Assembly (NCBI RefSeq): GCF_025460765.1
Contig: NZ_JAMWEG010000001.1
Location: forward strand, 496,001-560,000
Length of the DNA: 64,000 nucleotides
DNA from: Micromonospora sp. MA102
Lineage (GTDB): Bacteria; Actinomycetota; Actinomycetes; Mycobacteriales; Micromonosporaceae
Direction of reading: 5' to 3'
The translations under genes and the position numbers were made by a program. Of the stretch, positions 14,525 through 64,000 are shown in pieces; the stretch's first letter is position 1; each line of letters begins with the position of its first letter. Under the pieces are notes generated by a model. The model saw only the letters and a program-made list of their open reading frames with translations. It was not told the DNA's origin and ran no database searches.

Positions 14525-14547
14525 GCGGATGCCTTTCTCGGGGTGGG

Positions 14548-16151: not shown

Positions 16152-16153
16152 GG

Positions 16154-17302: not shown

Positions 17303-17307
17303 GGTGC

Positions 17308-19067: not shown

Positions 19068-19102
19068 GGGGATCTCCCGGGGGTGGGCGGGCCGACGGGG
19101 TA

Positions 19103-19137
19103 CGCGGGTGGCGGGGCGGTCCGCCCCGCCACCCGCG
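19103..19137 (-). terminator. 35-bp perfect palindrome between binding-protein and permease genes
   Basis: Arms 19103-19119 and 19121-19137 are perfectly complementary over 17 bp around T19120. In RNA this makes a very stable GC hairpin 6 nt after the binding-protein stop. It likely acts as a partial terminator and 3' stabilizer that gives more binding protein than permease, as in other CUT1 operons. Confidence 0.65.
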
Positions 19138-19143
19138 CGCGGC

Positions 19144-31635: not shown

Positions 31636-31652
31636 CGGTCTCCTCCTGTCGG

Positions 31653-40483: not shown

Positions 40484-40484
40484 G

Positions 40485-49959: not shown

Positions 49960-50059
49960 GCCGCTCCCCCGCTCCCCGTGCCGGCCCGGGCCAGCGTACG
50001 GGCGGTGGCACCGGGCCGGCATCCGGCGATCGTGCGGGCGGCGCCGGACCGTCGGGTCA

Positions 50060-50114: not shown

Positions 50115-50936
50115 TCAGGCGGCGTAGCGGGCGGCCAGGTCGACGACCCGGCGGGCGGCCGCCACCATGGCCCGGTCGGCGAACCGCCCGTCGGGCAGCA
50201 CCACGGTGCCGGAGTCGCGGGTGTGCGCGTCGGCGACCGCGGCGAGCAGCTCGCGGGCCCGGTCCACCTCCCGCTCGGCGGGGCGGAACGCGTCGGCGAT
50301 CACCGGCAGCTGGCGCGGGTGGATGGCGGCCCGGCCCAGGAAGCCGAGCCGCCGGCCGGCCGCGCAGGAGGCGGCCAGGCCGTCGAGGTCGGCCACGTCG
50401 GCGTACACCGACATGGCCGGCGGCGGCAGGCCGGCCGCGCGGGCCGCGACCACGATCCGGCCGCGCGCCCAGAGCAGGCCGTCGTCGTCGGCGACGCCCA
50501 GGTCGGAGCGGAGGTCGGCCTCGCCGAGCCCGAGCGAGGCCACCGCCGGGTGGGCGGTCGCGACGGCGTACGCGGACTCCAGCCCGACGGCCGACTCGAC
50601 CAGCGGGTGCAGCGGGGTGTCGACCCGGGCGGCCACCGCCGCCACCGTCGCCGGTGACTCCACCTTGGGCAGCCGCAGCCCGGCCAGCCCCGGCCGGCCC
50701 GCCACGGCGGCCAGGTCGGCGTCGAGATCCGGACCGGTCAGCTCGGTGACCCGCACCTGCACGGGCAGCGGCTGCGGGTCGGCCAGGAACTCGGCGACGG
50801 CGTCACGGGCGTACGCCTTGCGACCGGCCACCACGGCGTCCTCCAGGTCGAGGATGACCGCGTCGGCGCCGGCCGCGACCGCCTTGGCGAACCGGTCGGG
50901 CCGGTCGCCGGGCACGTAGAGCCAGGTGAGCAGCAT
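50115..50936 (-). CDS. HpcH/HpaI aldolase family protein, CitE-like (acyl-CoA lyase)
   Basis: 273 residues from ATG 50936, overlapping the CoA-transferase stop by one base (TGATG). CitE-type motifs: TWLYVPGDRPDRFAKAVAAG (in part), DAVILDLEDAV with metal-binding Asp/Glu, LRLPKVESP, HPLVESAVGLESA and GRAAIHPRQLPVIADAF. Family members cleave malyl-CoA, citramalyl-CoA or citryl-CoA to acetyl-CoA or a thioester plus an oxoacid. Paired with the CoA-transferase gene, it likely splits the CoA ester made by that enzyme. Last gene of the operon. Confidence 0.87.
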   Translation of the reverse strand: MLLTWLYVPGDRPDRFAKAVAAGADAVILDLEDAVVAGRKAYARDAVAEFLADPQPLPVQVRVTELTGPDLDADLAAVAGRPGLAGLRLPKVESPATVAAVAARVDTPLHPLVESAVGLESAYAVATAHPAVASLGLGEADLRSDLGVADDDGLLWARGRIVVAARAAGLPPPAMSVYADVADLDGLAASCAAGRRLGFLGRAAIHPRQLPVIADAFRPAEREVDRARELLAAVADAHTRDSGTVVLPDGRFADRAMVAAARRVVDLAARYAA

Positions 50937-52129
50937 CAGATCACCCCGCGCTCGCGCAGCGCGGCCAGGTCGTCGCCGGTCAGGCCGAGCGCGCCGAACA
51001 CCGCGTCGGTGTCCTGGCCGTGGCGGCGGCCGGCGTGCCGGATCTCCCCCGGGCTGTCCGACATCCGGAACGGCACGTTCTGCATCCGCACCTCGCCCAG
51101 TTCCTCGTCGGGCACGGTGACCACGGTGCCGAGCGCCGCGTACTGCGGGTCGGCCAGGATGTCGCGCACGTCGTAGACGGGGGCCACGGCGGCCTGGGCC
51201 GCCTCGAACGCGGCCACCACCTCGTCGCGGTCCCGCTTGCCCACCCACGCGCCGACCGCCGCGTCGAGTTCGTCGGCGTGCGCGGCCCGGCCGCTGCCGG
51301 TGGCGAACCACGGCTCGTCCACGAGTTCCGGGCGGCCGACGAGCCGGACCACCCGCTCGGCGATGCTCTGCGCGCTGGTGGACACGGCTATCCACCGCCC
51401 GTCGGCGCACCGGTAGGTGTTGCGGGGGGCGTTGTTGTTGGACCGGTTGCCCAGCCGGGGCTGGACGTAGCCGAGCTGGTCGTACCAGGTGATCTGCGGG
51501 CCGAGCATCGCCATGATCGGCTCGATGATGGCGAGGTCGACCACCTGGCCCCGGCCGGTGAGGTCCCGGCCGCGCAGGGCCAGCATGACGGCGTACGCGG
51601 CGGCGAGCGCGGTGACCGAGTCGGCCAGCCCGAACGGCGGCAGGGTCGGCGGCCCGTCGGGTTCCCCGGTGGCCGCGGCGAACCCGCTCATCGCCTCGGC
51701 GAGGGTGCCGAACCCGGGCCGCGGCGCGTACGGGCCGACCTGCCCGAAGCCGCTGATCCGGGCGATCACCAGCCGCGGGTTGACCGCGTGCAGCTCCTCC
51801 GGGCCGAGACCCCAGCGTTCCAGGGTGCCGGGGCGGAAGTTCTCCACCAGCACGTCGGCGTCGGCGAGCAGCCGGCGCAGCAGGTCCGCGCCCTCGGGCC
51901 GGGAGAGGTTGAGCGTGACGGTCCGCTTGTTGCGGCCGAGCACCTTCCACCACAGGCCGACGCCGTCCTTGGCGGGGCCGTGCCCCCGGGACGGGTCCGG
52001 CTTGGCGGGATGTTCGACCTTGACCACGTCGGCGCCGAAGTCGCCGAGGAACGCGGCGGCCAGCGGGCCGGCGAAGAGGGTGGCCAGGTCGACCACCTTG
52101 ACGCCGTGCAGCGGAGCGGTCGTGGTCAT
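50936..52129 (-). CDS. CaiB/BaiF-family (type III) CoA-transferase
   Basis: 397 residues from ATG 52129, overlapping the esterase stop (ATGA). Family blocks: HGVKVVDLATLFAGPLAAAFLGDFGADVVKVE (in part), NKRTVTLNLSRPEG, DVLVENFRPGTLERWG, ARISGFGQVGPYA, and GQVVDLAIIEPI holding the catalytic Asp. It moves CoA from a donor such as succinyl-CoA onto a carboxylic acid. The next gene (CitE-like) suggests a hydroxy-dicarboxylic acid such as malate or citramalate as acceptor (inference). Confidence 0.9.
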   Translation of the reverse strand: MTTTAPLHGVKVVDLATLFAGPLAAAFLGDFGADVVKVEHPAKPDPSRGHGPAKDGVGLWWKVLGRNKRTVTLNLSRPEGADLLRRLLADADVLVENFRPGTLERWGLGPEELHAVNPRLVIARISGFGQVGPYAPRPGFGTLAEAMSGFAAATGEPDGPPTLPPFGLADSVTALAAAYAVMLALRGRDLTGRGQVVDLAIIEPIMAMLGPQITWYDQLGYVQPRLGNRSNNNAPRNTYRCADGRWIAVSTSAQSIAERVVRLVGRPELVDEPWFATGSGRAAHADELDAAVGAWVGKRDRDEVVAAFEAAQAAVAPVYDVRDILADPQYAALGTVVTVPDEELGEVRMQNVPFRMSDSPGEIRHAGRRHGQDTDAVFGALGLTGDDLAALRERGVI

Positions 52130-54273
52130 GGCGTCCCCTTCACCGGGTCGACGGCGGCGAGGAACACGTCCCCGTTGCCGAGCGCGGCGCCGCCGTCGGG
52201 CGTGCCGGCGGTGCGGCCACTGACCAGCAGCCGGCCGTCGGGCCCGACGGTGGCGTAGACGTTCTCCTCGCCGAACGGGTCGGCGGCGTCGTCGCGGGCG
52301 GTGCCGTACTGGGCGACGGCGACCTGCCGGCCCTTGCCGTCGAGGCGCAGGGTGAGCACGTCCGCGCCGCCGGCCGGCACGCCGAGGGTGCTGCCCGTGA
52401 AGCCGACCACCGCGACGGTGCCGTCGGCGAGGGCCAGCACGTCGGTGCCGGCGTCCGCGCCGCGCCCGCCGGTGACGGTCCGCCAGCGCTGCGCACCCCT
52501 GGCCGTGTACGCCACGGTGAGCACGTCCCCGGCCGTGGCGCCGGTGGCCACCACCTGGCCGGCGCCGGTGACCGTGACGCCGCCGAGCAGGTCGTCGCCC
52601 GTGCCGCCGGCCACGGTGAGCCAGTCGCGGGTGCCGTCCGGGGTGAACCGGGCGAGCCAGCCGTCGGCGCCGCCGAGCGGCGTGGTGCCGGGCAGCACCC
52701 CCGAGGTGCCGCCGGCCACGTAGACGCCGTTCGCGTCGGCCGCCACGGCGTACGCCTTGTCCTCGCCGGGGCCGCCGAACTGCCGGGTCCAGGCCAGCGT
52801 GCCGTCGGGGGCGAGCCGGGCGAGGACGGCGTCCTTGTCGCCGGCGCTGGTCCCGCCGAACGCGCCGCTGGTGTAGCCGGCGACGTAGGCCCCGCCGTCC
52901 GGGGCGGCGGTGAGCGCGTAGAACCGGTCGGCCTTGGCGGGGTCGCCGGCCTGGGTGAGCCAGGCCCGCTGCCCGGTGGCGGTCAGCTTCGCCACGAACG
53001 CGTCGTCGGCTGGGCTGTCCGGGTGCCGGCCGTCGAGGTCGCCGCGGGTGTACCCGGCGGTGAGCACGCCACCGTCGGGCAGTGGCACGGTCCCGTAGAG
53101 CCGGTCGTTGGCGGCGGTGCCGAACTGGCTGGTCCAGCGGACCGTGCGGTCGGCGGCGAGCCGGGTGACCACGGCGTCGAGGCCGCCGGCGTACGGCTGT
53201 CCGGCGACGGCGCCGGTGGCCGCGTAGCCGAGGGTGACGTCGCCGTCCGGGTGGGCGGCGACACCGCCGGCCCAGTCGGCGCCGGCGGTGCCGTGCAGCG
53301 GGGCGGGCAGCCCGGCCGGCGGGGTGACGCTGAGGGTGGCGGCCAGGTGCTTCAGTCCGTCGACGAACGCGGGCCGCCAGACGTCCCAGTCGTGCCCGCC
53401 GTCCAGGACGCGGAACTCGGCGGCGACGCCGTCGGCCCGGCGCACCGTGTTGTAGAGGGTGGCGGCCTCGTAGTCGAGGTCGTGCGCGGCGTCGGCCGGG
53501 TCGGGGTTGGCCCACTCGTCGTCGCCGACGGCGATGAACATCCGCACCGGCGACTCGGCGTCGAGGCCGGGCAGCAGGGCCGGGTAGTTCAGCCGCTGGT
53601 ACACCGCGTCGGAGAAGGGCTGGTCGCCGTCGCCGAACGCGCCGAACTCGCGGGCCGACGAGTCGGCCGGCGGCAGCGGCCGGTAGACGGCCGGGCTGAG
53701 CACCAGCGCGTTGGCGAAGATGTCCTGGTGGGCCAGGGCGTAGCGCAGCGCGCCGGCGCCGCCCATCGAGTAGCCGCCGACCAGCCGGGCGTTCCGGTGC
53801 GCGGCGGTGCGGTAGGTGGCGTCGACGTGCGCGACCAGGTCGCGGGTCAGCGCGGTCTCCACCGGCCGGCCGGGGTGGTCGGCGCCGGTGTACGCGGAGT
53901 CGACGTACCAGTTGCCGCGCTCGCTCCACGGCGCGTCGGGCAGCACGGCGATCACCGGCGGCACCTCGCCGTCGGCGATGAGCCGGTCCAGGTCGCTCTT
54001 CACCCGGGTCCACGCCTGCATGGTGTCGCCGCGCCCGTGCAGCAGGTAGAGCACCGGGTAGCGGGTGCCGGCGTTCGCCGCGTCGGCGTAGCCGTGCGGC
54101 AGGTAGACGGTGTAGTCGATGGCGGCGCCGAGGGCCGGCGAGGGGGCGGTCGCGGTGGTGAGGGTGCCGGACCGCTCCTTTCCGGCGACGGCGGTCTCCG
54201 TGGCGAGGCCGGCGAGCCCGACGGCGGTCAGCAGGGCGACCAGGGCGGCGCCGGGGCGCCGCGCTCTTCTCAT
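52126..54273 (-). CDS. Exported esterase fused to an SBBP beta-propeller
   Basis: 715 residues from ATG 54273, overlapping the previous stop (ATGA). A signal peptide covers about residues 1-30 (ALVALLTAVGLAGLATETAVAG in part). An esterase-D/antigen 85-like alpha/beta hydrolase follows (YPVLYLLHGRGD, nucleophile Ser in GGYSMGGAG, Asp in FIAVGDDEW, His in DGGHDWDVW). From about residue 345 there are at least seven repeats of GYTRGDLDG / AYVAGYTSGAFGG / GTLAWTRQFGGPGEDKAYAVA type (SBBP), forming a beta-propeller. It probably removes an acyl group from the imported compound outside the cell, with the propeller binding polymer or protein. Confidence 0.85.
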   Translation of the reverse strand: MRRARRPGAALVALLTAVGLAGLATETAVAGKERSGTLTTATAPSPALGAAIDYTVYLPHGYADAANAGTRYPVLYLLHGRGDTMQAWTRVKSDLDRLIADGEVPPVIAVLPDAPWSERGNWYVDSAYTGADHPGRPVETALTRDLVAHVDATYRTAAHRNARLVGGYSMGGAGALRYALAHQDIFANALVLSPAVYRPLPPADSSAREFGAFGDGDQPFSDAVYQRLNYPALLPGLDAESPVRMFIAVGDDEWANPDPADAAHDLDYEAATLYNTVRRADGVAAEFRVLDGGHDWDVWRPAFVDGLKHLAATLSVTPPAGLPAPLHGTAGADWAGGVAAHPDGDVTLGYAATGAVAGQPYAGGLDAVVTRLAADRTVRWTSQFGTAANDRLYGTVPLPDGGVLTAGYTRGDLDGRHPDSPADDAFVAKLTATGQRAWLTQAGDPAKADRFYALTAAPDGGAYVAGYTSGAFGGTSAGDKDAVLARLAPDGTLAWTRQFGGPGEDKAYAVAADANGVYVAGGTSGVLPGTTPLGGADGWLARFTPDGTRDWLTVAGGTGDDLLGGVTVTGAGQVVATGATAGDVLTVAYTARGAQRWRTVTGGRGADAGTDVLALADGTVAVVGFTGSTLGVPAGGADVLTLRLDGKGRQVAVAQYGTARDDAADPFGEENVYATVGPDGRLLVSGRTAGTPDGGAALGNGDVFLAAVDPVKGTP

Positions 54274-56219
54274 CGGAGGGCTCCTTCGGGCAGGTCGGCG
54301 GCGCAGCGGAAACCGATCGAGGTGGAGCGGGTCAGGCCGGCGCCGGTGAGCAGCAGCTTCACCGACACGTCCGGCGGCTGCGGGCCGCCGTCGAGATACC
54401 AGTCGGAGCCCTCCGCCCGGTAGGCGCAGCCGCCCTTGAGGATGACGAAGCGGGTACGCCCGTCGGAGTGCTCGCTCTCGGTCAGGTTCCAGACGAGGGG
54501 CTCCCGCCGGACCAGCAGGCCCGCCTCGGCGGCCACCTGCCACTCGTCCTCGGTGGGCAGCCGCAGCCCGGCCCAGTCGGCGTACGCGCGGGCATCGGCG
54601 AGGTCGACACCGGTGACCGGGGCGTCGGCGGGGCCCTGCCCGGCGGTGAACCGCTCCGGCCGGACCGGCCGGTAGCCGGTGGCGGCGAGGAAACGCGCGT
54701 ACTCGCCGTGGGTGACCTCGTGGGTGTCGATGGCGAAGCGGCCGAGGCGGACCTGGCGGCGCAGCGTGCCGGTGTGGTGCAGGCGCGGCGGCAGCGGCTT
54801 CCACTCGTCGACGTACGGGGCCTCGCCGTAGAGGCCGGTCTCCCGGACCCGGTGGCGCACGGTCAGCTCGTGCCGGCCACCCTCCATGGTCACCATGCCG
54901 TCGGGCAGGGCGGCGAGGGGTGACCACGGGGTGCGGGCGCGCACGGCGGCGCGGGCCGGGAACGACGGGTCCCCGGTCGGCGGCTCGTGCCGGGGCGCCG
55001 GCGTCTCGGTGGCGACCACGGCGGCGATCGCCCCGGCGGGCAGGGGCCCGCCGACGGCCACCCGGCCGTCCTCAAGTTCGGTGACGGTCAGCTCGGCGCC
55101 GGTGACCAGGTCGACGAAGCGCCCCGGCCGGGCGTCGGTGAGCAGCCACGGGCCGTCGTGGTCGGCGCCCCGGTTGACCACCGTCCACAGCGGCTGGTCG
55201 TCGTGGGTCCAGCGGGACGCGTACACCTGGCCGGCGCCGGGGTGGTCGGCGAGCGGGACCCAGTCCTCGGCGCGCAGCCAGGCGGCGTGGCTGGCCTGCA
55301 CCCGGCGCATGGCCCGCAGCACGGCCCGGTCCCGCTCGTTCCAGCCGACCCAGACACCGAAGACGCTCTCCCAGACCAGCACCCCGCAGCCGTTGAGCCA
55401 GGCGGAGTGCAGCTCGTCGAGGTGGTCCCGGTGCCAGCGGCGGGTGTGGTGCAGGACGTGCCGGCGTTCGAACCACTTGGCGCGCAGCACGCCGGGGGTG
55501 TCCGAGTCGGCGAACCACTGCGCCCAGGACATGGCGTGGTCGGCGATCCGGGCCAGCGGCACCCGGCTCTCCCCCTCCAGGACCAGGCCGGGGCGGACCG
55601 CGTCGAGGGCCTTGCGCAGCTCGCCGGCGCCCTCCTTCAGGGTGTCCAGGAAGACCCCGTCGACGCCCAGCCGGTCGGCCAGCGCGGCGACCTCCTCGGC
55701 GTCCGTGCCGGCCTCCCGCCGGGTGCCGGTGTCCCACGGGTTGTAGTCGACGAACACCCGCACCCCGGCGGCCTGGAACGCGCGGACCACCTCGGGCAGC
55801 TCGGGCACGTCCCGGTACCAGTCGAACTGGTTGCGCTCGTCCAGCCCGATCACCGGGTACGCGTGCCAGAGCACCACGCCGTCGAAGCCGCCGAAGTCGC
55901 GCCGCGCCGCGTCGAGGAACTCCTCGACGGTGAAGGTGCCGCGGTCGTGGTCGTACAGCGTCTCGTCCCAGAGCCAGGCGAGGCAGACGCTGAAACAGTC
56001 GCCGGCGATCTCGTCGTAGTGCGCGCCGGTGTAGCCGAGCCGGGCGCGGGCGTCGGCCCGCCACCGGGTGAGCTGCTCCCGCCAGGCCGGCCAGTCGGCG
56101 GGGTCGTCGGGGGCGGCGAAGATCTTCGCCTCGTCCAGGGTGGTCAGGTCGGCGTGGCCGCCGAGCGGGACCTCGGTGGGCCGGTCGATCGGCCGCGGCA
56201 CGTACGGGTTGAAGCTCAC
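54270..56219 (-). CDS. TIM-barrel glycosidase-like protein fused to an FGE-like domain lacking the catalytic Cys pair
   Basis: 649 residues from GTG 56219, overlapping the ribokinase stop (GTGA). The N-terminal part (about 1-420) looks like a glycoside-hydrolase-type barrel: YDEIAGDCFSVCLAWLWDETLYD (in part), GVVLWHAYPVIG, VRVFVDYNPWDTG, GVDGVFLDTLKEG, VLEGESRVPL. The C-terminal part (about 440-645) is a formylglycine-generating-enzyme-like fold: FAIDTHEVTHGEYARFLAATG (in part), LRLPTEDEWQVAAEAG, FVILKGGCAYRAEGSDW, SIGFRCAAD. The two catalytic Cys of true FGE (after GGSY) are replaced by Arg and Asp, and no sulfatase is near, so this is probably not a sulfatase activator. No signal peptide is seen. 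Reaction unknown. Confidence 0.75.
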   Translation of the reverse strand: MSFNPYVPRPIDRPTEVPLGGHADLTTLDEAKIFAAPDDPADWPAWREQLTRWRADARARLGYTGAHYDEIAGDCFSVCLAWLWDETLYDHDRGTFTVEEFLDAARRDFGGFDGVVLWHAYPVIGLDERNQFDWYRDVPELPEVVRAFQAAGVRVFVDYNPWDTGTRREAGTDAEEVAALADRLGVDGVFLDTLKEGAGELRKALDAVRPGLVLEGESRVPLARIADHAMSWAQWFADSDTPGVLRAKWFERRHVLHHTRRWHRDHLDELHSAWLNGCGVLVWESVFGVWVGWNERDRAVLRAMRRVQASHAAWLRAEDWVPLADHPGAGQVYASRWTHDDQPLWTVVNRGADHDGPWLLTDARPGRFVDLVTGAELTVTELEDGRVAVGGPLPAGAIAAVVATETPAPRHEPPTGDPSFPARAAVRARTPWSPLAALPDGMVTMEGGRHELTVRHRVRETGLYGEAPYVDEWKPLPPRLHHTGTLRRQVRLGRFAIDTHEVTHGEYARFLAATGYRPVRPERFTAGQGPADAPVTGVDLADARAYADWAGLRLPTEDEWQVAAEAGLLVRREPLVWNLTESEHSDGRTRFVILKGGCAYRAEGSDWYLDGGPQPPDVSVKLLLTGAGLTRSTSIGFRCAADLPEGALR

Positions 56220-57148
56220 TGGACCCCTCCGTAGGTGGCGGCGGCGAGCGCGTCGATGGCGGCCCGCTCCGGCAGGGCCGTGGACGCGCCGGGGCGTTGG
56301 GCGCAGGCCGCGCCGGCGGCGCACGCCCAGCGCAGCACGCCGGTGGCGGTGTCGCCCGTGAGCCCGCCGCGTTCGGCCAGGGCGACCGCGAGCGCGCCGG
56401 TGAACGCGTCGCCGGCGGCCGTGGTGTCCACCGCGTCGATCGTCGGGGCCGGCACCTCGATCCGGGCGCCGTCCCGGTCGGCGTAGGCGGCGCCGCGCGC
56501 GCCGAGGGTGAGCACCACCCGGGGCACCAGGCCGACCAGCGCGTCGAGCAGGGCGGCCGGCTCGTCGGTGAACACCCCGGCCACGACGGCGGCCTCGTGC
56601 TCGTTGACCACCAGCACGTCGACCAGGTCGAGCAGCTCGGTGGGCAGCGGCCGGGCCGGGGCGGCGTTGAGCACCACGGCGGCGCCACCGGCGCCGGCCC
56701 AGCCGGCGGCCCGGGTGACCTCCGACAGCGGCACCTCCAGTTGGAGCAGCAGCACGCCGGCCGCCGCCACCGCGTCGCGGTCGGCGTCGTCGAGGGCCAG
56801 CGCGCTGTTCGCGCCGGGGGCGACCACGATGCAGTTCTCCGCCGCGTGGTCCACCGCGATCAGCGCGACCCCGGACGGCCCGTCGACCGTGCGCAGGCCG
56901 ACGACGTCGACGCCGGCCGCGGCCAGGTTGTCCCGCAGCAGCCCGCCGAACCCGTCGCCGCCGATGGCGCCCACGAAGGCGCAGTCGGCGCCGGCCCGGG
57001 CGGCGGCGACCGCCTGGTTGGCGCCCTTGCCGCCGGGCACCATCCGGAAGTCGTCGCCGAGGACCGTCTCGCCGGGGCGGGGCAGCTGCGGCGCGGTGAC
57101 CACGAGGTCCAGGTTGGCGCTGCCGACCACCACCACCCGGGCGCTCAC
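56216..57148 (-). CDS. rbsK: Ribokinase (PfkB family)
   Basis: 310 residues from GTG 57148, overlapping the ADP-ribosylglycohydrolase stop. Ribokinase signatures: VGSANLDLVVTAPQLPRPGETVLG (in part), PGGKGANQAVAAARAGA, NAAPARPLPTELLDLVDVLVVNEHEA (in part), VLTLGARGAA and DTTAAGDAFTGALAV with the catalytic Asp. It makes ribose 5-phosphate (or phosphorylates a nucleoside or similar sugar). In this operon it probably uses the sugar released by the two preceding hydrolases. Confidence 0.88.
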   Translation of the reverse strand: MSARVVVVGSANLDLVVTAPQLPRPGETVLGDDFRMVPGGKGANQAVAAARAGADCAFVGAIGGDGFGGLLRDNLAAAGVDVVGLRTVDGPSGVALIAVDHAAENCIVVAPGANSALALDDADRDAVAAAGVLLLQLEVPLSEVTRAAGWAGAGGAAVVLNAAPARPLPTELLDLVDVLVVNEHEAAVVAGVFTDEPAALLDALVGLVPRVVLTLGARGAAYADRDGARIEVPAPTIDAVDTTAAGDAFTGALAVALAERGGLTGDTATGVLRWACAAGAACAQRPGASTALPERAAIDALAAATYGGVQ

Positions 57149-58548
57149 GCCGCGCTCCCGTGGGCCAGGGCCAGGGTGCGGTCGGCGAGGGTGTCGAAGC
57201 CGATGCCGTCGAATCCGGCGATGCTGCTGGCCAGCCGGTTGCGCAGCGGCGCGACCCAGCGTCCGGGCAGCCGGGCGGCCCCGGTGAGGGCGCCGGTGAC
57301 CGCGCCGACGGTGGCGCCGTTGGAGTCGGTGTCCCAGCCGCCGGCGACCACCGCGCAGATGGAGCGTTCCAGGTCGCCCCGCCCGTACGCCAGGGCCGCC
57401 GCGACCAGCGCGGCGTTGTTGCGGACGTGCACCCAGTGCAGGTGGCCGTGCCGCGCGTAGAGGGTGTCCACGATGCTCTCCCAGTCGTCACCGGCGGCGC
57501 CGAGTGCGCGCGCCTCCCGGACGGCCGCGGTGAACCGGCTGCCCGGGGGCAGCACCGACTCGCCCGCGTCCAGCACCGCGTCCACGTCGCCGGCCACCGG
57601 CGCCGCCGCGGCCATGGCGGCCACCCAGACCGCCCCGTACGCGCCGGCCCGGACGTGGCTCACGGCCGCGTCGCGCCAGGCGGCCTCGGCGGCCCGGTCG
57701 GGGCGGCCGGGGTTGGTCCAGCCGTACACGTCGGTGCGGATCTGCGCGCCGATCCACTCCCGGAACGGGTTGTGCCGGCGGGCGGTGTCCGGCGGGGTGA
57801 GGCCGAGCAGCAGGTTGCGGTAGGCGACCCGTTCGGCGGTGAAGACCCGCCCGGCGGGCAGCCAGTCCAGCCAGGCCTGGGCCACGTCGGCGCTGGTGAA
57901 GCCGGGTCCGTGGGTCTCCAGGACGCGCAGCGCCAGGAGCGGGAAGTTGAGGTCGTCGTCCTCGGGCATGCCGGCGATGTTCTCGGCGAGGCTGTTCGGG
58001 GCGCTGCGCCGGTTCCACGGCCAGCGGGCGGCCACGTCGGCCGGCAGACCCCGCGCCGTGAACCAGTCGCGCAGCGGCCACCGGCCGGTGGCGGTGAGGA
58101 TCTCCCGGATGCCGTGGCGGGGGATCTTCTCCACCGGCTTGCCGAGCAGGCAGCCGGCTGCCCGGCCGAGCCAGGCGCCGTGCAGCCGGTCCCGCTCGAC
58201 GGTGGTCGGCAGGTCCCAGGCGCCCGGCCAGGTCTTGCGGACCCCGTCGAGGTCGTCGGGCTCGTCGGCGATGTCCGGGCCGGGCAGCGCGTCGGCGGCG
58301 TCGAGCAGGTCGACGGCGAGGGCCCGCAGCGCCGGCGGCGCCGGCACCGGCGAGGCCCCGCTGACCGGTGCCGTGACGTCGCCGCCGGCCGCCGCCCAGC
58401 GGTCGGCCAGCGCGGTGACGTCGCGGCCCTCGTCGCGGCTGGCGGCCAGCTCGTGCGGCAGCAGGTCCTCCGGCTGCACCCAGGTTAGCCGCAGCCCGCC
58501 GGCCGTCCCCCTCGGCCGGCCGGCGGCCACGGCGCCCGCAGCGCTCAT
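57145..58548 (-). CDS. ADP-ribosylglycohydrolase family protein (larger paralogue)
   Basis: 467 residues from ATG 58548, overlapping the previous stop (ATGA). A non-conserved N-terminal part of about 110 residues precedes the ARH fold: RLHGAWLGRAAGCLLGKPVEKI (in part), the first acidic motif GMPEDDDLNFPLLAL, and the second WDTDSNGATVGAVTGALTG, which together bind Mg2+ in this superfamily. These enzymes hydrolyse N- or O-glycosidic bonds at ribose C1. The family's GDALG loop is altered here (AAGCLLGK). With the sister gene and ribokinase it suggests riboside breakdown. Confidence 0.85.
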   Translation of the reverse strand: MSAAGAVAAGRPRGTAGGLRLTWVQPEDLLPHELAASRDEGRDVTALADRWAAAGGDVTAPVSGASPVPAPPALRALAVDLLDAADALPGPDIADEPDDLDGVRKTWPGAWDLPTTVERDRLHGAWLGRAAGCLLGKPVEKIPRHGIREILTATGRWPLRDWFTARGLPADVAARWPWNRRSAPNSLAENIAGMPEDDDLNFPLLALRVLETHGPGFTSADVAQAWLDWLPAGRVFTAERVAYRNLLLGLTPPDTARRHNPFREWIGAQIRTDVYGWTNPGRPDRAAEAAWRDAAVSHVRAGAYGAVWVAAMAAAAPVAGDVDAVLDAGESVLPPGSRFTAAVREARALGAAGDDWESIVDTLYARHGHLHWVHVRNNAALVAAALAYGRGDLERSICAVVAGGWDTDSNGATVGAVTGALTGAARLPGRWVAPLRNRLASSIAGFDGIGFDTLADRTLALAHGSAA

Positions 58549-59678
58549 GCCAGCCCGCCGAACCGCTCGGCGCGCCGGGCGAAGCGCTCCCGGTCGCGGT
58601 CGAACACCTCGGTGGCGACCCCGGCGAGGACCCGGGCGGGTTCGACCAGGTCGGTGCGGGACGCGCCGGCGACCACCTCCGACCACTCGGCCGGCACCGC
58701 CGCGGCGCCGCCGAGCGCACCGGCGATCGCGCCGGCCATGGTGGCCGTGGAGTCGGCGTCCCGGCCGTAGTTGACCGAGCCGAGCACGGCCGCCCGGTAG
58801 TCGCCGCCGGCCACCACGAGCATGCCCAGCGCCACCGGCAGCTCCTCGATGGCGTGCAGCCGGCTCGGGCGGCGGGCGCCCAGGCCGGGGCTGCGGTACT
58901 CCTCCCCCACCGTGTCGTAGGGGGCCACCGCGGCGCGCAGCGCCGGGATGGCGGCCTTCCAGTCGTCGTGCCCGCGAGCCTCCTTGACCACCGCGTCGAT
59001 GGCGGCGCGGGTGCCGTCGCGGGCCAGGTCCAGGGCGGCGGCCACGACGTCGTCGACGCCCGCGCCGGGGGTCGCGGCCGCGGCGACCGCGGCGGCGAAG
59101 ACCGCCGCGGCCTCCCGCCCGTAGCTGTGCTGGTGCGCCCCGGCGATCTCCACGGCCTCGGCGTAGGCGCCGGCCGGGTCGCCGGCGTTGACGATGCCGA
59201 CCGGGGCCATGTACATGGCGGCGCCGCAGTTCACGATGTTGCCCACGCCCGCCTCGCGCGGGTCGGCGTGGGCGTGGTGCAGGCGGGTGACCAACCACCG
59301 CTCGGCCGCGGCCAGGCGGTGGAAGGTCACCCCCTCCCGCTCCAGGTCCGGGATGTACACCACCCGCTCGATCAGGTCGGGGACGAGCAGTTCCACCACG
59401 TCGTACGCGTCGAGGTGGTCCCGTTTGGCCGCGTACGCCCGCACCAGCGCGTGGGTCATCAACGTGTCGTCGGTGATGTGCCCGTCGCCCTTGTGGTACG
59501 GCGCGAGTGGCCGCGCGGTGGCCCAGTCGGCGTGGTACGGGGGGACGATCCCCTCGACCCAGCCGCCGAAGCGGGCGCGGATCTGCTCCGGGAGTGCCGT
59601 CTCGGTGGCCCCGCCGAGGGCGTCGCCCACCGCGGCGCCGACCAGGCAACCGACCGACGTGTCGAGCAAGAGTGACAT
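58545..59678 (-). CDS. ADP-ribosylglycohydrolase family protein (canonical paralogue)
   Basis: 377 residues from ATG 59678; the ribosome site GAGGTAACC contains the TAA stop of the binding-protein gene. Canonical ARH motifs: VGCLVGAAVGDALGGATE (in part), GHITDDTLM with the two metal Asp, and GSVNYGRDADSTATMAGAIAGALGG (in part) with the C-terminal metal Asp. It should hydrolyse a ribosyl or ADP-ribosyl bond in the cytoplasm. Sequence length and motifs differ clearly from the neighbour, so the two probably act on different bonds or substrates. Confidence 0.88.
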   Translation of the reverse strand: MSLLLDTSVGCLVGAAVGDALGGATETALPEQIRARFGGWVEGIVPPYHADWATARPLAPYHKGDGHITDDTLMTHALVRAYAAKRDHLDAYDVVELLVPDLIERVVYIPDLEREGVTFHRLAAAERWLVTRLHHAHADPREAGVGNIVNCGAAMYMAPVGIVNAGDPAGAYAEAVEIAGAHQHSYGREAAAVFAAAVAAAATPGAGVDDVVAAALDLARDGTRAAIDAVVKEARGHDDWKAAIPALRAAVAPYDTVGEEYRSPGLGARRPSRLHAIEELPVALGMLVVAGGDYRAAVLGSVNYGRDADSTATMAGAIAGALGGAAAVPAEWSEVVAGASRTDLVEPARVLAGVATEVFDRDRERFARRAERFGGLA

Positions 59679-59680
59679 GG

Positions 59681-60976
59681 TTACCTCAGAACCTGCTTGC
59701 CACCGTCGACCAGCTGCGTGGCGAGCTGGTCCAGGGTGATCTTGTTGGCGAAGTACTGCTGGAGGGCCGGAGTGGCGTACTTGGTCTTCCACTCCGGGTA
59801 GCCGTCGGCCTTTTGGAACGGGGCGACGGTCAGGTCGGCGGCGCTGTCCGCGGCGACGTCCCAGCCCTGCTTGCCGCCGGTGAGCTTGACCAGCTCCTGG
59901 TTCGCCTGCTTGCCGGTGGGCACCAGCCAGTCACCCTTGGCCAGGGCGGCCATGTTGGTCGGGTTCAGGAACCACTCCAGGAACTGCGCGGCCTGCTTCT
60001 TGTGCTTGCTGTCCTCGGCGATGGACAGGGTCTGCGGGTTGGCCGCCTGCTTGGCGGAGAGGCCCTTGACCGGCGGGAGGGTGACCCACTCGAAGCCGGC
60101 GGGGGCCTGCTCGACCATCTGCTGGCGCAGCGAGACCGAGCCGGGAAGCATCGCGTACTTGCCGCCGAAGAAGCCCGGCAGGGTGTCCGCGCCGCTCATG
60201 CCCAGCGCCTCCGGAGAGGCCGACTTGGTCGCGTAGATCATGTCGTGGATCCGCTTCGGCACCTCCTTCTCCGCGTCGCCGACCTTGACCTCGGTCTTGC
60301 CGCCGTCGCCGTAGAAGAACTTGCCGTCGTAGTTCAGCGCCAGGTTCAGCACCCGGTTGGTGGGCGACTTGAGCGCCCACGCGGCGCCGTACTGGCCGGG
60401 CTTGGTGAGCTTCTGGGCGTTGGCCTGGAACTCGTCCCAGGTCCAGCCGCCGTCGGCGGGCGGAACGGCGACGCCGGCGGCGTCGAGCAGCTTCTTGTTG
60501 GCGATGACGACCTGCGACTCCAGCAGGAACGGCACTCCGGTGACCTTGCCGTCGAAGGTGGCGGTGTCCCAGACGCCCGGGTCGATCTGGCCCTTGAAGT
60601 CGTCACTCAGCAGCTTGGAGACGTCGGCCAGGTAGCCCTGCTTGCTGAACTCGCCGATGGCCGAGGCCTCGTAGTGCACGATGTCGGCCACGTCGCCGCC
60701 CTCGAACGAGGTGACCAGCTGGTCGTGGATCGAGTTCCAGTCGCCCTGGACGTACTCGACCTGGATGTCCGGGTGCTCGGCGTTCCACTTGGCGACCAGG
60801 TCCTTGTTGGCCTGGAGCGACTCCTTCTGCCAGGCGAGGCTGAGGAAGCGCAGCTTGACCGGGCCGGACGAGTTCTCGTCCTCGCCGCCGCCGTCACCGC
60901 ACGCGGTGAGGGCGCCGAGCCCGACGACCGCGACCGCGGCGGCCGCGGCGAGTCGGCGGAACCTGCTACGGAGCAT
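59681..60976 (-). CDS. ABC transporter solute-binding lipoprotein (CUT1)
   Basis: 431 residues from ATG 60976, preceded by AAGGAGGAA. The signal peptide ends in the lipobox LGALTAC. The family 1 binding-protein fold shows LRFLSLAWQKESLQANKDLVAKWNAEHPDI (in part), VTSFEGGDVADIVHYEA, GGKYAMLPGSVSLRQQMV and AAQFLEWFLNPTNMAALAKGDWLVPTG (in part). It delivers the unknown glycoside to the two permeases. It ends with TAA 2 nt before the next start, so its stop lies within the next gene's ribosome site. Confidence 0.9.
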   Translation of the reverse strand: MLRSRFRRLAAAAAVAVVGLGALTACGDGGGEDENSSGPVKLRFLSLAWQKESLQANKDLVAKWNAEHPDIQVEYVQGDWNSIHDQLVTSFEGGDVADIVHYEASAIGEFSKQGYLADVSKLLSDDFKGQIDPGVWDTATFDGKVTGVPFLLESQVVIANKKLLDAAGVAVPPADGGWTWDEFQANAQKLTKPGQYGAAWALKSPTNRVLNLALNYDGKFFYGDGGKTEVKVGDAEKEVPKRIHDMIYATKSASPEALGMSGADTLPGFFGGKYAMLPGSVSLRQQMVEQAPAGFEWVTLPPVKGLSAKQAANPQTLSIAEDSKHKKQAAQFLEWFLNPTNMAALAKGDWLVPTGKQANQELVKLTGGKQGWDVAADSAADLTVAPFQKADGYPEWKTKYATPALQQYFANKITLDQLATQLVDGGKQVLR

Positions 60977-61016
60977 GGGGGATTCCTCCTTGGTGGTGGT
61001 TGTGGGGGGGATGTGG

Positions 61017-61856
61017 TCAGCCCTTGACCGCGCCGGCGAGCGACCCGGACGAAAGGCGGCGTTGCATGACCGCGAAGAAGATCAGGCTCGGCAGGGTGGC
61101 CAGCAGCGAACCGGCCGCCAGGGGACCCAGGCGGGCGGTGCCCTCGATGCCGACGAACCGGGCCAGGGCGACCGGCAGGGTCGCCAGCTCGGGCGTCTTG
61201 ACCAGCACCAGCGCGAAGAAGAACTCGTTCCAGGCGGAGATGAAGGAGAACAGCGCGGTCGCCACGATGCCCGGCGCGAGCAGCGGGAAGACCACCCGGC
61301 GCAGCACCTGGAGCCGGCTGGCGCCGTCGACGCTGGCCGCCTCCTCCAGCTCGCGCGGGATGTTGCGAACGAAGCCCTGCAGCATCCACAGGGCGAACGG
61401 CAGCGCCCAGACCACGTAGATCAGCACCAGGCCGGCGTGGGTGTTGGCCAGCCCGACCTGCCGCAGGATCAGGAAGATCGGGATGATCAGCAGCACGAAC
61501 GGGAAGAGCTGCGACAGCAGCACCCAGCCGAGCGCCACGGTGCCCAGCTTGGTCCGGAACCGCGCGAGCGCGTACGAGGCGGGCAGCGCGACCAGCACGG
61601 TGAGCACCGCCGAGGCGAGCGACACCTGGAGGCTGTTCAGCGCGGCCCGGCCGAGCTGCTGCTCGGTGAAGGCCTGCACGAAGTTCTGCACGGTGGGGTT
61701 GCTGGGGATGAGCGTGGGGTGCAGCCGCACCAGTTCACGCGGCGGCTTGAACGCGGTGGAGAGCAGCCAGACCAGCGGGAACCCGAGGAAGATCAGGTAG
61801 CCGGTCAGCGCGACGTACTGGAGGGTCCGCCCGGTGCGGCTCGGCTTTCCGAACAT
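61017..61856 (-). CDS. ABC sugar transporter permease (CUT1, MalG-like)
   Basis: 279 residues, six helices; EAA loop ELEEAASVDGASRLQVLRRVVFP. ATG 61856 lies 1 nt after the stop of the partner permease. A 40-nt gap with a good ribosome site separates it from the binding-protein gene. No ATPase gene is present; a shared MsiK-type ATPase is presumed. Confidence 0.92.
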   Translation of the reverse strand: MFGKPSRTGRTLQYVALTGYLIFLGFPLVWLLSTAFKPPRELVRLHPTLIPSNPTVQNFVQAFTEQQLGRAALNSLQVSLASAVLTVLVALPASYALARFRTKLGTVALGWVLLSQLFPFVLLIIPIFLILRQVGLANTHAGLVLIYVVWALPFALWMLQGFVRNIPRELEEAASVDGASRLQVLRRVVFPLLAPGIVATALFSFISAWNEFFFALVLVKTPELATLPVALARFVGIEGTARLGPLAAGSLLATLPSLIFFAVMQRRLSSGSLAGAVKG

Positions 61857-61857
61857 G

Positions 61858-62790
61858 TCAGTTCGCCTCCCGGAGTCGGCGCCGCAGGTAGACCGCGAGC
61901 AGCGCGACGATGATCACGACCATGACGTTGCCGAGGGCGGCGGCGTAGCCGTAGTTGCCGTAGCGGAACGCCTCCTCGTAGGCGAAGAGCATCGGCAGCA
62001 TGGTCTTGCCGCCCGGCCCGCCCGCGGTGAGCACGTAGACCAGGCCGAACGAGTTGAAGTTCCAGATGAAGTCCAGCGAGGTGATCGCCACGACGACCGG
62101 CGCGATGGCGGGCAGCGTGACGTTGCGGAACCGGTGCCAGGTGCTCGCGCCGTCCACGGCGGCCGCCTCGTGCAGCTCGCGCGGCACGCCCTGCAACCCG
62201 GCGAGGAGCACCACGGTGGTCTGCGGCATGCCGGCCCAGACGCCGACGATGATGACCGCGGGCAGGGCGGTGCTGAAGTCGCCGAGCCAGTTGGTGCGCA
62301 GCCCGTCCGCGCCGACCCGGTGGAAGAACTCGTTCAGCAGGCCGGCGTCCGGGTGGTAGACCAGCTTCCACAGGATGCCGACGACCACGGGCGGCATCGC
62401 CCAGGGCACCACGGCCAGCACCCGGGCCAGCCCGCGGAAGCGCAGCTGCTGGTTGAGCAGCAGGGCGAGGCCGAGGGCGAGCACGAACTGGAGCACGGTC
62501 ACCCCGACCGCCCAGAGCAGGCCGATCTTGAACGAGTTCCAGAACAGCTCGTCGCCGAGCAGTTCCCGGTAGTTGGCCAGCCCGGTGAAGCTGATCTCGA
62601 CGTTGCGGCCGGCCCGGGCGTCGGTGAAGCCGAGCCAGATGCCCCGCACCAGCGGGAAGACCGACAGCACCACGATGGGCAGCAGCGACGGGAGCAGCAG
62701 CAGGTAGATGCCCATCCGGTCGGAGCGGGACCGGGCCCTGCGGGGCCCGTCGGCGCGGGCGACGTCGGGCCGTTCGGCCACCGTGGTCAT
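61858..62790 (-). CDS. ABC sugar transporter permease (CUT1, MalF-like)
   Basis: 310 residues with a basic cytoplasmic N-terminus (residues 1-25) and six helices; EAA loop ELHEAAAVDGASTWHRFRNVTLP. ATG 62790 overlaps the lacI stop (ATGA). The permease genes precede the binding-protein gene, the reverse of the usual order. Confidence 0.92.
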   Translation of the reverse strand: MTTVAERPDVARADGPRRARSRSDRMGIYLLLLPSLLPIVVLSVFPLVRGIWLGFTDARAGRNVEISFTGLANYRELLGDELFWNSFKIGLLWAVGVTVLQFVLALGLALLLNQQLRFRGLARVLAVVPWAMPPVVVGILWKLVYHPDAGLLNEFFHRVGADGLRTNWLGDFSTALPAVIIVGVWAGMPQTTVVLLAGLQGVPRELHEAAAVDGASTWHRFRNVTLPAIAPVVVAITSLDFIWNFNSFGLVYVLTAGGPGGKTMLPMLFAYEEAFRYGNYGYAAALGNVMVVIIVALLAVYLRRRLREAN

Positions 62791-63869
62791 GCCGTCACCT
62801 CCGGGGTACGCGGCGCGGGCGCCGGCTCGGGGACGAGGAGCGGCGTCGTGGCGCTGGAGGCGCGCACGGCGAGGCTGGGGGCGACCTGCTCGCGGCGCGG
62901 CGGCAGGCTCGGGTCGGCGATGCGCGACAGCAGCAGTTCGGCGGCGCGGCGACCGCGCTCGGCCGAGCCGAGGGAGACGCTGGAGAGCTGCGGGAACATC
63001 ATCCGGGCCAGTTCGGTGTCGTCCATGCCGACCAGCGCCACGTCGTCGGGGACGCGCCGGCCGGCGGCGAGCAGCGCGTGCAGCGCGCCGACGGCGATCA
63101 GGTCGTTGGCGCAGACCAGCGCGTCGGGGTGGGCCCGGGCCAGGAGGCGCTCGGTGGCGGCCCGGCCGGCCGCGTACCGGAAGTCGCCGACCTCGACCAG
63201 GCGCTCGTCGAGCGCGATGCCGTGCCCGGCGAGGGCGGCCCGGAAGCCGGCGTCGCGGGCCGCGCCGGGAACGGTGTCCAGCGGGCCGTTGACGAAGCCG
63301 ATCCGCCGCCGCCCGGCCGCGACCAGGTGGTCGACGGCCAACCCCACGCCGGTACGCGAGTCGGTGCGGACGTTGTCCACCGGCGCGTCGGCGGCGAGTT
63401 GCCCGACCACGACCACCGGCACCGGGCTGTCGACCAGCGCGGCGAGGTGGTCGCCGGTGACCCGGATCGGCGAGACGATCATCCCGTCGACGTAGCGGTG
63501 GGCCAGCCGCCGCAGCAGCGCGGTCTCGTTGTCGATCCGGCCGCCCGTGGCGTGCACCAGGAGCTGCCGCCCGGAGGCGGCGACCACGGACTCGATGGCG
63601 CGCATCATCTCGACGTACACCGGGTTGCCGATGTCCTCGACGGCGAGCGCGACGAGGCCGGTGCGCTGCGACTGGAGCGAGCGGGCGATGGCGTTGGGCA
63701 CGTACCCGACCTCGGCCGCCGCCTCGCGCACCTTGCGCACCGTCTCCGGGCTGCCGCCGACGCCGTTGAGCACGCGCGAGGCGGACGCGATGGAGACACC
63801 GGCGCGGGCGGCGACGGTGTGGACGGTGGGCCGGCCGTCGGCCGACTCCTGTAAACGTTTACGACCCAC
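62787..63869 (-). CDS. LacI-family transcriptional regulator
   Basis: 360 residues from GTG 63869, 8 nt after GGAGG; GTG 63878 is too close to that site. Helix-turn-helix and hinge: VHTVAARAGVSIASASRVLNG (in part), VGYVPNAIARSLQSQRTG. The ligand domain is of ribose-binding-protein type (VDGMIVSPIRVTGDHL, RIGFVNGPLDTVPGAARDAGF in part, PDALVCANDLIAVGAL, VALVGMDDTELA). It is the first gene of the eleven-gene operon and has three operator-like palindromes at its own start, so it represses the operon and itself. Codon 6 is the rare leucine codon TTA, which lies in an operator. Confidence 0.92.
   Translation of the reverse strand: MGRKRLQESADGRPTVHTVAARAGVSIASASRVLNGVGGSPETVRKVREAAAEVGYVPNAIARSLQSQRTGLVALAVEDIGNPVYVEMMRAIESVVAASGRQLLVHATGGRIDNETALLRRLAHRYVDGMIVSPIRVTGDHLAALVDSPVPVVVVGQLAADAPVDNVRTDSRTGVGLAVDHLVAAGRRRIGFVNGPLDTVPGAARDAGFRAALAGHGIALDERLVEVGDFRYAAGRAATERLLARAHPDALVCANDLIAVGALHALLAAGRRVPDDVALVGMDDTELARMMFPQLSSVSLGSAERGRRAAELLLSRIADPSLPPRREQVAPSLAVRASSATTPLLVPEPAPAPRTPEVTA
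63851..63862. promoter_or_regulatory. LacI-type operator inside the lacI coding sequence
   Basis: GTAAACGTTTAC is a perfect 12-bp palindrome with the AAACGTTT core of LacI/GalR-family operators. It covers codons 3-6 of the lacI gene. Bound repressor here would act as a roadblock. Confidence 0.65.
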
Positions 63870-63892
63870 GCCCGGCACCTCCAGCTGCTTGC

Positions 63893-63904
63893 TGTAAACG
63901 TTTC
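63893..63904. promoter_or_regulatory. LacI-type operator just downstream of the promoter -10
   Basis: GTAAACGTTTCC shares the AAACGTTT core and 10 of 12 positions with the coding-region operator, 42 bp away (about four helical turns). It sits directly after the candidate -10. Confidence 0.7.
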
Positions 63905-63908
63905 CGGG

Positions 63909-63938: not shown

Positions 63939-63949
63939 GGGCTCGTTAC

Positions 63950-63961
63950 GAAAACGTTTCC
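63950..63961. promoter_or_regulatory. LacI-type operator upstream of the promoter -35
   Basis: GAAAACGTTTCC has the same core (AAACGTTT), 57 bp from the middle site. It could allow looping between sites. It may also serve a divergent gene beyond the window edge. Confidence 0.65.
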
Positions 63962-64000
63962 AACCGGGGCTGAGCTGGGCCGGACGGGCCGAGCCGGACG

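Follow-up and report, generated by a model that had tools for sequence, protein, structure and literature searches.

A conserved actinobacterial gene cluster linking ADP-ribosylglycohydrolase-family proteins to CaiB and CitE: a probable LacI-controlled operon for glycoside catabolism

Eleven genes on the minus strand (positions 50115 to 63869) of the 64 kb stretch of DNA analysed here (the window) probably make up one catabolic operon under LacI control, serving a glycoside with a ribose-like sugar from which an organic acid is released. With slightly less confidence we favour the view that a large branch of the ARH/DraG family in actinobacteria is not involved in ADP-ribosylation and consists of small-molecule glycosidases, which act in sets of two to four at the centre of a so far undescribed pathway coupling riboside cleavage to CoA-dependent cleavage of the released hydroxy acid. 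The initial annotation had described eleven genes on one strand together with their families, and both were recovered from the reading frames, which are backed by codon-position GC, and from Pfam and HpcH_HpaI-CitE profile matches. A crude gene caller placed the starts of ARH2 and lacI further inside. The genes are the following:

62787-63869, minus strand: LacI-family repressor (PF00356, 37 bits; PF13377, 123 bits; GTG start at 63869, alternative at 63878)
61858-62790, minus strand: ABC sugar permease 1 (PF00528, BPD_transp_1, 92 bits)
61017-61856, minus strand: ABC sugar permease 2 (PF00528, BPD_transp_1, 75 bits)
59681-60976, minus strand: solute-binding lipoprotein (PF01547, SBP_bac_1, 136 bits; translation with a lipobox-like LTAC motif)
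58545-59678, minus strand: ARH1, ADP-ribosylglycohydrolase-family protein, 377 aa (PF03747, 164.8 bits)
57145-58548, minus strand: ARH2, ADP-ribosylglycohydrolase-family protein, 467 aa with about 115 extra N-terminal residues (PF03747, 163.8 bits)
56216-57148, minus strand: ribokinase-like PfkB kinase (PF00294, 192 bits)
54270-56219, minus strand: fusion of a GH13-like barrel (predicted) and an FGE-like domain, 649 aa (PF03781, 79 bits)
52126-54273, minus strand: exported esterase with beta-propeller repeats, accessory (PF00756, 99 bits; PF06739, SBBP)
50936-52129, minus strand: CaiB-type family III CoA-transferase (PF02515, CoA_transf_3, 414.5 bits)
50115-50936, minus strand: putative CitE-like hydroxyacyl-CoA lyase (PF03328, HpcH_HpaI/CitE, 97 bits)

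The computed junctions (-4, 1, 40, 2, -4, -4, -4, -4, -4 and -1 nt) agree with the earlier description, in which nine of ten junctions overlap or lie within 2 nt and the tenth measures 40 nt. The next gene beyond CitE encodes a CehA/McbA-like protein (48181-50022, minus strand) and is located 92 nt downstream. That the arrangement reflects one operon-like catabolic unit and not chance is supported at the sequence level, since the gene order recurs in other genera and the copies of AAACGTTT are confined to the lacI start.

Order and strand of the cluster recur in 80 loci from 32 named genera and 11 named families, so that the unit is conserved well beyond this strain; the lack of such conservation, by which the initial annotation would have been refuted, does not apply. 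Gene contents were counted in the 61 of these loci with enough flanking sequence (27 genera) and in a second set of 20 loci, four of which share contigs with the first set of 80. ARH1 was found beside ARH2 in every cluster (61/61 and 20/20), and the LacI gene and each ABC gene were present in 55 of 61 and 16 of 20, which places the ARH genes in a LacI/CUT1 uptake context. CaiB and CitE each occur in 55 of the 61 and 18 of the 20 clusters and never one without the other; both are missing from six and two clusters, respectively, one of these being the same contig in both sets, which speaks against a strict linkage. The ribokinase gene was detected in 56/61 and 18/20 clusters (missing in five and two). 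The esterase gene was found in only 17 of 61 clusters and in none of the 20; deacylation outside the cell, which the initial annotation had proposed, is a weak element of the pathway and is not supported as a core step because the esterase is optional. In an even sample of the phylum (396 genomes) ARH2 was matched in 12, and the ten genomes with a full-length ARH2 orthologue all carry CaiB within about 5 kb, nine of them, all of one genus code, at about 1 kb.

Within the window AAACGTTT occurs three times, and no copy is more than about 100 bp away from the start of lacI:

63948-63963, no strand assigned: operator-like site 3 (AAACGTTT core 63952-63959)
63892-63907, no strand assigned: operator-like site 2 (AAACGTTT core 63896-63903)
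63849-63864, no strand assigned: operator-like site 1, overlapping the 5' end of lacI (AAACGTTT core 63853-63860)

The 10-base form KAAACGTTTM was matched twice in the window and not once in 100 dinucleotide shuffles. Upstream of lacI, AAACGTTT, which resembles a palindromic LacI-type operator, was present in 64 of 66 loci; altogether these loci contain 118 sites in the 15.8 kb around the lacI starts versus four in the remaining 1.34 Mb. The palindromic operator-like site by which a LacI-controlled operon would be recognized was thus found at the putative promoter. Outside the operon the own genome has two further KAAACGTTTM sites. The first falls within a reading frame belonging to a lut-like cluster, the second coincides with no called gene, and neither was accepted as an additional regulon member.

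Both ARH proteins match PF03747 over the whole domain, far above the cut-off of 26.2 bits. In ARH1, E26 is conserved in 79 of 80 rows (one gap) and T69, D70, D71 and T72 as well as D307, D309 and S310 in all 80; in ARH2, E140, the EDDD variant E196-D199 and the DTDS residues D406, D408 and S409 are conserved in 81/81. We take the acidic residues to form the dinuclear metal site and the glutamate to be catalytic. The predicted model of ARH2 (pLDDT 92) has the all-helical ARH fold and matches MJ1187 (best match, TM 0.79 by target length), DraG and ARH3. A G-A-x-M-R segment common to YegU and two paralogues of the own genome is altered in both proteins, with R replaced by Y in ARH1 (80/80) and M by I in ARH2 (81/81), the latter with an additional two-residue insertion.

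In many relatives the cluster includes two further ARH genes, ARHa and ARHb, so that up to four ARH genes occur together. In 36 of 36 rows ARHb lacks the Glu at the aligned position and the first Asp of DxD, and judging from these residues it is apparently a non-catalytic partner. For the most part, though not without exception, ARHa and ARHb replace the barrel-FGE gene: in the first set 36 clusters have the barrel only, 20 ARHa and ARHb only, four all three and one neither, and in the second set the numbers are two, 12, six and zero, respectively. Strict mutual exclusion is ruled out by the four and six loci with both. In the locus counted as neither (L049), ARHb is present and ARHa was not found. 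ARH2-like paralogues lie beside two CUT1-type permease genes in six of 14 loci (L153, L154, L155, L161, L162, L163) and beside an RbsK-like kinase in four of 14 (L153, L154, L155, L157); at L122 such a paralogue is accompanied by both.

The best NCBIfam match of the kinase is TIGR02152, the bacterial D-ribokinase, at 263.3 bits and hence below the equivalog cut-off of 299.65. N12 (73 of 74 rows) and D14, G40, K41, N44, E138 and D247 (74/74) are presumably the ribose-contact and catalytic positions. For the barrel-FGE protein an AF2 model (pLDDT 80) was aligned with VIA-align: approximately residues 47-406 of the predicted structure align with GH13-type enzymes with Z up to 18.2 (TVAII, 1jf5, rmsd 3.6 over 316 residues, 12% identity) and residues 435-645 with FGE (Z 15.4). 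The fusion named in the initial annotation is hereby retained and its barrel refined, being GH13-like in the predicted fold; a Pfam search at E 0.001 returned FGE-sulfatase as the sole domain and no GH13 match. GH13 enzymes have their catalytic Asp and Glu on strands 4 and 5 and a third Asp near strand 7; D192 and E217 (49/49), placed by strand order and not by superposition, are candidates for the first two, and D265 (39/49) may be the third. Formylglycine-generating enzyme carries a copper-binding Cys pair, and no Cys was found among the invariant or nearly invariant columns of the barrel-FGE alignment; position 598 is Cys in only eight of 49. The description of the protein as wholly Cys-free would be too wide, as C75 within the barrel, the most conserved Cys, is kept in 43/49. 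By eye, a signal peptide was not apparent in this protein. In the esterase, whose signal peptide was likewise judged by eye, S169 and H294 are conserved in 18/18.

CaiB is assigned to the family III CoA-transferases by its CoA_transf_3 match and by D170, which is conserved in 66/66 and which we take to be the active-site Asp. For CitE the top solved chain by sequence is 8khl, a probable acyl-CoA lyase, and the best NCBIfam match is RipC_Ccl with 149.5 bits, below its cut-off of 375. Neither of the two reaches any NCBIfam equivalog cut-off.

A conceivable but rather unlikely alternative is that the cluster combines two independent modules, a sugar module (LacI, ABC, ARH, RbsK, barrel) and an acid module (CaiB-CitE) whose acid comes from the environment and is not the ARH product. 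Locus L153, which has the ARH2-like gene, ARHa, ARHb, RbsK and LacI/ABC without CaiB or CitE, is consistent with such a division. The same applies to 11 Nonomuraea-type genomes, in which the ARH cluster lacks both genes and a CaiB of 65-69% identity is encoded elsewhere (11/11), adjoining CitE in 10/11; at none of the eight regions examined was AAACGTTT found, and mostly a GntR-type gene lies nearby. In the CaiB tree seven of these eight form a long-stemmed group of their own beside the ARH-linked proteins (support 88), and the remaining one, L103, falls outside and is flanked by the cyclase and MmgE/PrpD-like genes of another module. The separate CaiB might conceivably still belong to the pathway after a change of location. 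The other module was seen in the regions around CaiB matches in genomes without ARH2 (L106-L120; G380 with a distant ARH2 only), where CaiB is accompanied by cyclase (PF04199) and MmgE/PrpD-like genes and by no ARH in 11 of 15, often with IclR and hydantoinase-like genes as well (Pfam check for L106 only); CitE is present in six of these 11. This neighbourhood suggests a different upstream chemistry. As its CaiB proteins are 58-68% identical, CaiB identity alone proves no link to ARH, and the context named no acid. Against two modules stand the co-occurrence of CaiB and CitE in most ARH clusters, their overlaps of -4 and -1 nt with the upstream genes in the window, and the tree, in which the ARH-cluster CaiB proteins lie on one side of a branch (66/66; support 57).

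Both by name and in assays, ARH proteins are treated as erasers of ADP-ribosylation, and family membership, the conserved metal-site residues and the DraG- and ARH3-like fold of the ARH2 model would agree with reversal of ADP-ribosylation on protein, nucleic acid or small molecules, the operon then salvaging ADP-ribose or NAD-derived ribosides. In the available text of two studies the S. coelicolor homologues are indeed filed as putative DraG/ARH hydrolases (PMC9411070, PMC5087735). We regard this reading as improbable: the genes stand in an uptake and catabolism context, the G-A-x-M-R segment is altered, and a profile search of the eleven operon proteins gave no ADP-ribosyltransferase or Nudix match. 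Another doubtful, though less remote, possibility concerns the sugar, which may not be ribose; the operon would then degrade another alpha-linked glycoside (an alpha-glucoside or similar, as suggested by the GH13-like barrel), with the PfkB kinase acting on a different pentose or hexose. The predicted GH13-like fold and the sub-cut-off TIGR02152 score point this way, and excerpts of the Salmonella RikA study caution that, when a PfkB enzyme phosphorylates ribose, this may be an off-target activity (PMC13432705). Ribose is favoured by TIGR02152 as the best match and by the nearly invariant presumed ribose-contact positions. In addition, ribosyl bonds are the target of those ARH enzymes whose activity is known.

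In the single-operon pathway that we infer, LacI would repress transcription from the AAACGTTT operators at its own promoter, and the binding lipoprotein and two permeases would import the compound, energized by an ATPase supplied elsewhere; the exported esterase may provide an optional pre-treatment. In the cytoplasm ARH1 and ARH2 would hydrolyse glycosidic bonds of small molecules and would not serve to remove ADP-ribose from proteins; they would be partnered by the barrel-FGE protein, in other genera by ARHa/ARHb, or by both. The ribokinase-like enzyme would trap the freed pentose by phosphorylation, CaiB would move CoA onto the released acid, and CitE could cleave the resulting beta-hydroxyacyl-CoA, which would yield an oxo compound together with acetyl-CoA or one of its homologues. 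As candidate substrates, nucleosides, alpha-ribazole, methanopterin, aminoglycoside ribosides and 3-hydroxy-3-methylglutaryl esters found no support in the data.

Canonical ribose and sugar operons share the LacI repressor, ABC import and ribokinase-like enzyme with the window, which differs in that its transporter is of the CUT1 type, with two permeases but without a gene for the ATPase, and additionally contains the ARH proteins, the GH13-like barrel-FGE fusion, CaiB and CitE. As in itaconate/citramalate degradation (RipC/Ccl), CoA activation of an acid would precede a CitE-like lyase; in contrast to that route no MaoC-type hydratase was matched in the operon, and CitE scores far below the cut-off. 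The E. coli operon yegTUV, a target of GgaR/YegW, likewise unites ARH-family YegU, putative sugar kinase YegV and a transporter, but the transporter is of another type and there is one ARH and no CaiB, CitE, LacI or barrel. The effector of GgaR/YegW is given as ADP-glucose in the available text (PMC10819704). In the accessible portions of the open-licence full-text literature (without preprints) no link between ARH and CaiB/CitE and no such pathway was found.

The proposed role, if true, would account for the large number of ADP-ribosyl hydrolase homologues in Streptomyces in the face of few transferases; excerpts of one study call the surplus in S. coelicolor surprising (PMC5087735). Part of this surplus would be explained if at least four S. 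coelicolor hydrolases serve a carbon-source pathway, and together with their relatives in about 30 other genera they would require a correction of the family annotation. The cluster may also lead to a substrate that is new for the ARH fold, show what the unusual GH13-FGE fusion does and help to identify a compound apparently consumed by many actinobacteria. Flanked by gltB on one side and by lgt ... trpB ... trpC on the other, the Streptomyces loci contain four ARH genes, (RbsK), CaiB and CitE. They fit SCO2028-SCO2033 of S. coelicolor, as assigned by synteny and numbering, which would probably be ARHa, ARHb, ARH1, ARH2, CaiB and CitE in this order; trpX, SCO2038 in the printed numbering, is consistent with this trp-side placement. 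SCO2028-2031 are listed as four uncharacterized ADP-ribosyl hydrolase homologues in the available text of PMC9411070, and according to excerpts of PMC13036486 U-alpha-ADPr, the one ADP-ribosyl substrate with a reported negative result, was not hydrolysed by SCO2028 or SCO2030, which are ARH orthologues by synteny; this speaks for the glycosidase reading. Most Streptomyces loci differ from the window in having no adjacent LacI/ABC genes (10 of 11 clusters with upstream sequence) and no barrel, and the operator was detected in one of 13 (L047). In S. spiralis (L082) a Pfam check revealed the Streptomyces-type gene set without RbsK.

The genes at 50115-63869 lie on the minus strand of a window (G000:C1:496001-560000) in a genome of 6.99 Mb and 44 contigs. 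The closest loci were found in Micromonospora, with ARH2 identities of 98% and 94%. All eleven genes named in the initial annotation were recovered in the same order, from lacI to citE, and its description of the gene junctions (-4, 1, 40, 2, -4, -4, -4, -4, -4 and -1 nt) was exact. The proposed unit is real, and the case for it is stronger than the first description could have known: it is a conserved, LacI-controlled and apparently dedicated catabolic operon, which puts proteins of the ADP-ribosylglycohydrolase (ARH) family into small-molecule metabolism. The next gene follows after a gap of 92 nt:

48181-50022, minus strand: CehA/McbA-like metallohydrolase that follows citE at 92 nt; its N-terminus looks twin-arginine-like by eye

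The encoded protein reached 63.6 bits with NCBIfam, below the cut-off of 80. Since this gene accompanies the cluster in only three of 80 loci, all near Micromonospora, it is probably not a cluster member.

For the determination of conservation, ARH2 was searched in one genome per species, which gave at least 586 confirmed relatives. The best 80 of these, comprising 32 named genera and 11 named families, were kept as a first set. Among these best 80, 61 loci from 27 genera had at least 8.5 kb upstream and at least 7 kb downstream of ARH2; they contained ARH1 (61), RbsK (56), LacI and each ABC gene (55), CaiB and CitE (55 each), barrel-FGE (40), ARHa (24) and ARHb (25). A second set of 26 loci was picked from 58 full-length ARH2 matches in 394 sampled genomes of the class. 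The 20 loci with sufficient flanks harbored ARH1 (20), CaiB with CitE (18), RbsK (18), LacI/ABC genes (16), barrel-FGE (8) and both ARHa and ARHb (18). As four of the 26 contigs also occur in the first set, the two sets are not to be pooled. CaiB and CitE are always paired in the clusters, neither occurring alone. The exported esterase was present in 17 of the 61 and in none of the 20 loci, so that the extracellular deacylation proposed initially is at most accessory. The remaining chemistry suggested there, namely riboside cleavage, a kinase step and CoA-dependent cleavage of the acid, is no more than plausible in outline.

The core AAACGTTT, extended as TGGAAACGTTTCCA or CGTAAACGTTTACAG, was matched between -200 and +40 of lacI in 64 of 66 loci, and 41 of the 66 carry two or more copies of AAACGTTT at lacI. 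Around lacI 118 sites were counted in 15.8 kb, against four in the other 1.34 Mb of the same loci. The sites in the window are:

63853, 63896 and 63952: three copies of AAACGTTT, all at lacI

The pattern KAAACGTTTM occurs four times in the window's own genome, two of these sites being those at lacI. The other two look irrelevant as regulon members, and from the distribution of sites the repressor appears to serve this operon alone. The operator-like site was absent from the eight unlinked CaiB regions scanned.

ARH1, ARH2 and the additional ARHa and ARHb of other genera match PF03747, and the predicted ARH2 model (pLDDT 92) matches MJ1187, DraG and ARH3. In ARH1, ARH2 and ARHa, hardly any variation is seen at the positions aligned with the metal site and the catalytic Glu. 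ARHb lacks the aligned Glu and the first Asp of the C-terminal DxD in all 36 sequences and, by its sequence, may be a non-catalytic partner. A Gly-Ala-x-Met-Arg segment, which presumably contacts the ADP part in known enzymes, was found in YegU and two own-genome paralogues. It is altered in ARH1 (Tyr replaces Arg, 80/80) and in ARH2 (Ile replaces Met, 81/81, plus an insertion). Two further PF03747 genes of the genome lie at G000:C1:184143-185051 and G000:C37:246477-247277; in the alignment the latter appears without the catalytic Glu at its usual place.

Fourteen paralogous ARH2-like loci (L153-L166) were read. Two CUT1-type permease genes accompany the ARH2-like gene in six (L153, L154, L155, L161, L162, L163) and an RbsK-like kinase in four (L153, L154, L155, L157); no such set was seen among the genes listed for the remaining loci. 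A further locus, L122, has both the permease pair and the kinase. Such neighbors make a role of this ARH branch in nutrition more likely. In an actinobacterial genome, L153:15514-17469 (minus strand) combines a signal-like N-terminus with PF03747 (47.5 bits) and adjoins ribose-type ABC genes, named by eye; an extracellular riboside hydrolase is possible.

In Streptomyces the order is ARHa-ARHb-ARH1-ARH2-(RbsK)-CaiB-CitE, between gltB and lgt ... trpB ... trpC (Pfam on L082). The operator-like site was found in one of 13 clusters of this Streptomyces type, L047, which has LacI/ABC genes; ten of the 11 with upstream sequence have no adjoining LacI/ABC. By gene order and published numbering, SCO2028-2033 fit this cluster. 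Eight DraG/ARH homologs are given in print as uncharacterized, and SCO2028-2031 make up four of them (PMC9411070). The abundance of hydrolases has been termed surprising (PMC5087735), and trpX of trpCXBA is SCO2038 (PMC5036795). According to PMC13036486, SCO2028 and SCO2030 showed no detectable activity on U-alpha-ADPr. A near described operon is yegTUV of E. coli, whose enzymes have no known function according to PMC10819704. RikA of Salmonella shows that a PfkB kinase active on ribose may belong to a different pathway (PMC13432705).

CaiB belongs to the family III CoA-transferases and CitE to the PF03328 lyases; neither passed a named equivalog cut-off. In 396 genomes evenly drawn from the phylum (thresholds E 1e-60 for ARH2 and 1e-110 for CaiB), ARH2 was detected in 12 and CaiB in 45. 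CaiB has other uses, because 34 of these 45 genomes lack ARH2. Full-length ARH2 occurs in ten, the window's genome and nine of one genus code, with CaiB no more than about 5 kb away in all ten and about 1 kb in the nine; within this sample CaiB accompanies full-length ARH2 wherever the latter occurs. Two genomes have distant ARH2-like genes: G020 gave no CaiB match, and in G380 CaiB lies on another contig as part of a module that includes cyclase and MmgE/PrpD-like genes. This module, probably another pathway, holds the CaiB relatives of 58-68% identity in 11 of 15 regions:

L106, L107, L109, L111, L112, L113, L114, L115, L116, L119, L120: CaiB, cyclase-family and MmgE/PrpD-like genes

CitE is present in six of the 11, and several carry IclR or hydantoinase-like genes (Pfam check on L106 only). 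In the tree, 66 ARH-linked CaiB proteins fall on one side of a branch with a support of only 57. Eleven genomes (ten Nonomuraea, one Sphaerimonospora) have an ARH cluster without CaiB/CitE and a CaiB of 65-69% identity elsewhere, adjoined by CitE in ten. Neighbors and tree place the Sphaerimonospora CaiB (L103) in the other module. Among L098-L105, where CaiB lies away from the ARH cluster, CitE directly adjoins in 7/8 and CaiB is divergent from a GntR-type gene, assigned by eye, in 7/8. In several, an ABC transporter of ribose type and a TetR gene are close by, again named by eye.

The predicted model of the barrel-FGE protein (pLDDT 80, weak at about 220-249) suggests a GH13-like glycosidase that carries an FGE-like domain. 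GH13-type enzymes align over residues of about 47-406 (Z up to 18.2, 12% identity) and FGE over 435-645 (Z 15.4). D192 and E217 are invariant (49/49); assigned by order, they sit where strands 4 and 5 end. A conserved Cys pair was not found in the FGE part, and the only Cys conserved in most sequences, C75, is located in the barrel; the FGE-like domain probably has a binding role. Barrel-FGE and ARHa/ARHb occur together in 4/61 loci of the first and 6/20 of the second set. Almost all clusters contain either or both (60/61 and 20/20), which is consistent with interchangeable roles.

Two further gene groups of the window were named by eye from first residues only:

12760-20385, minus strand: second sugar-type cluster with gluconokinase-like, two enolase-superfamily dehydratase-like, KDG-kinase-like and KDPG-aldolase-like genes, two ABC permeases and a binding protein; a GntR-like gene lies on the opposite strand
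31135-42223, minus strand: mce-type operon with several Mce-like genes, two YrbE-like permeases and an ABC ATPase
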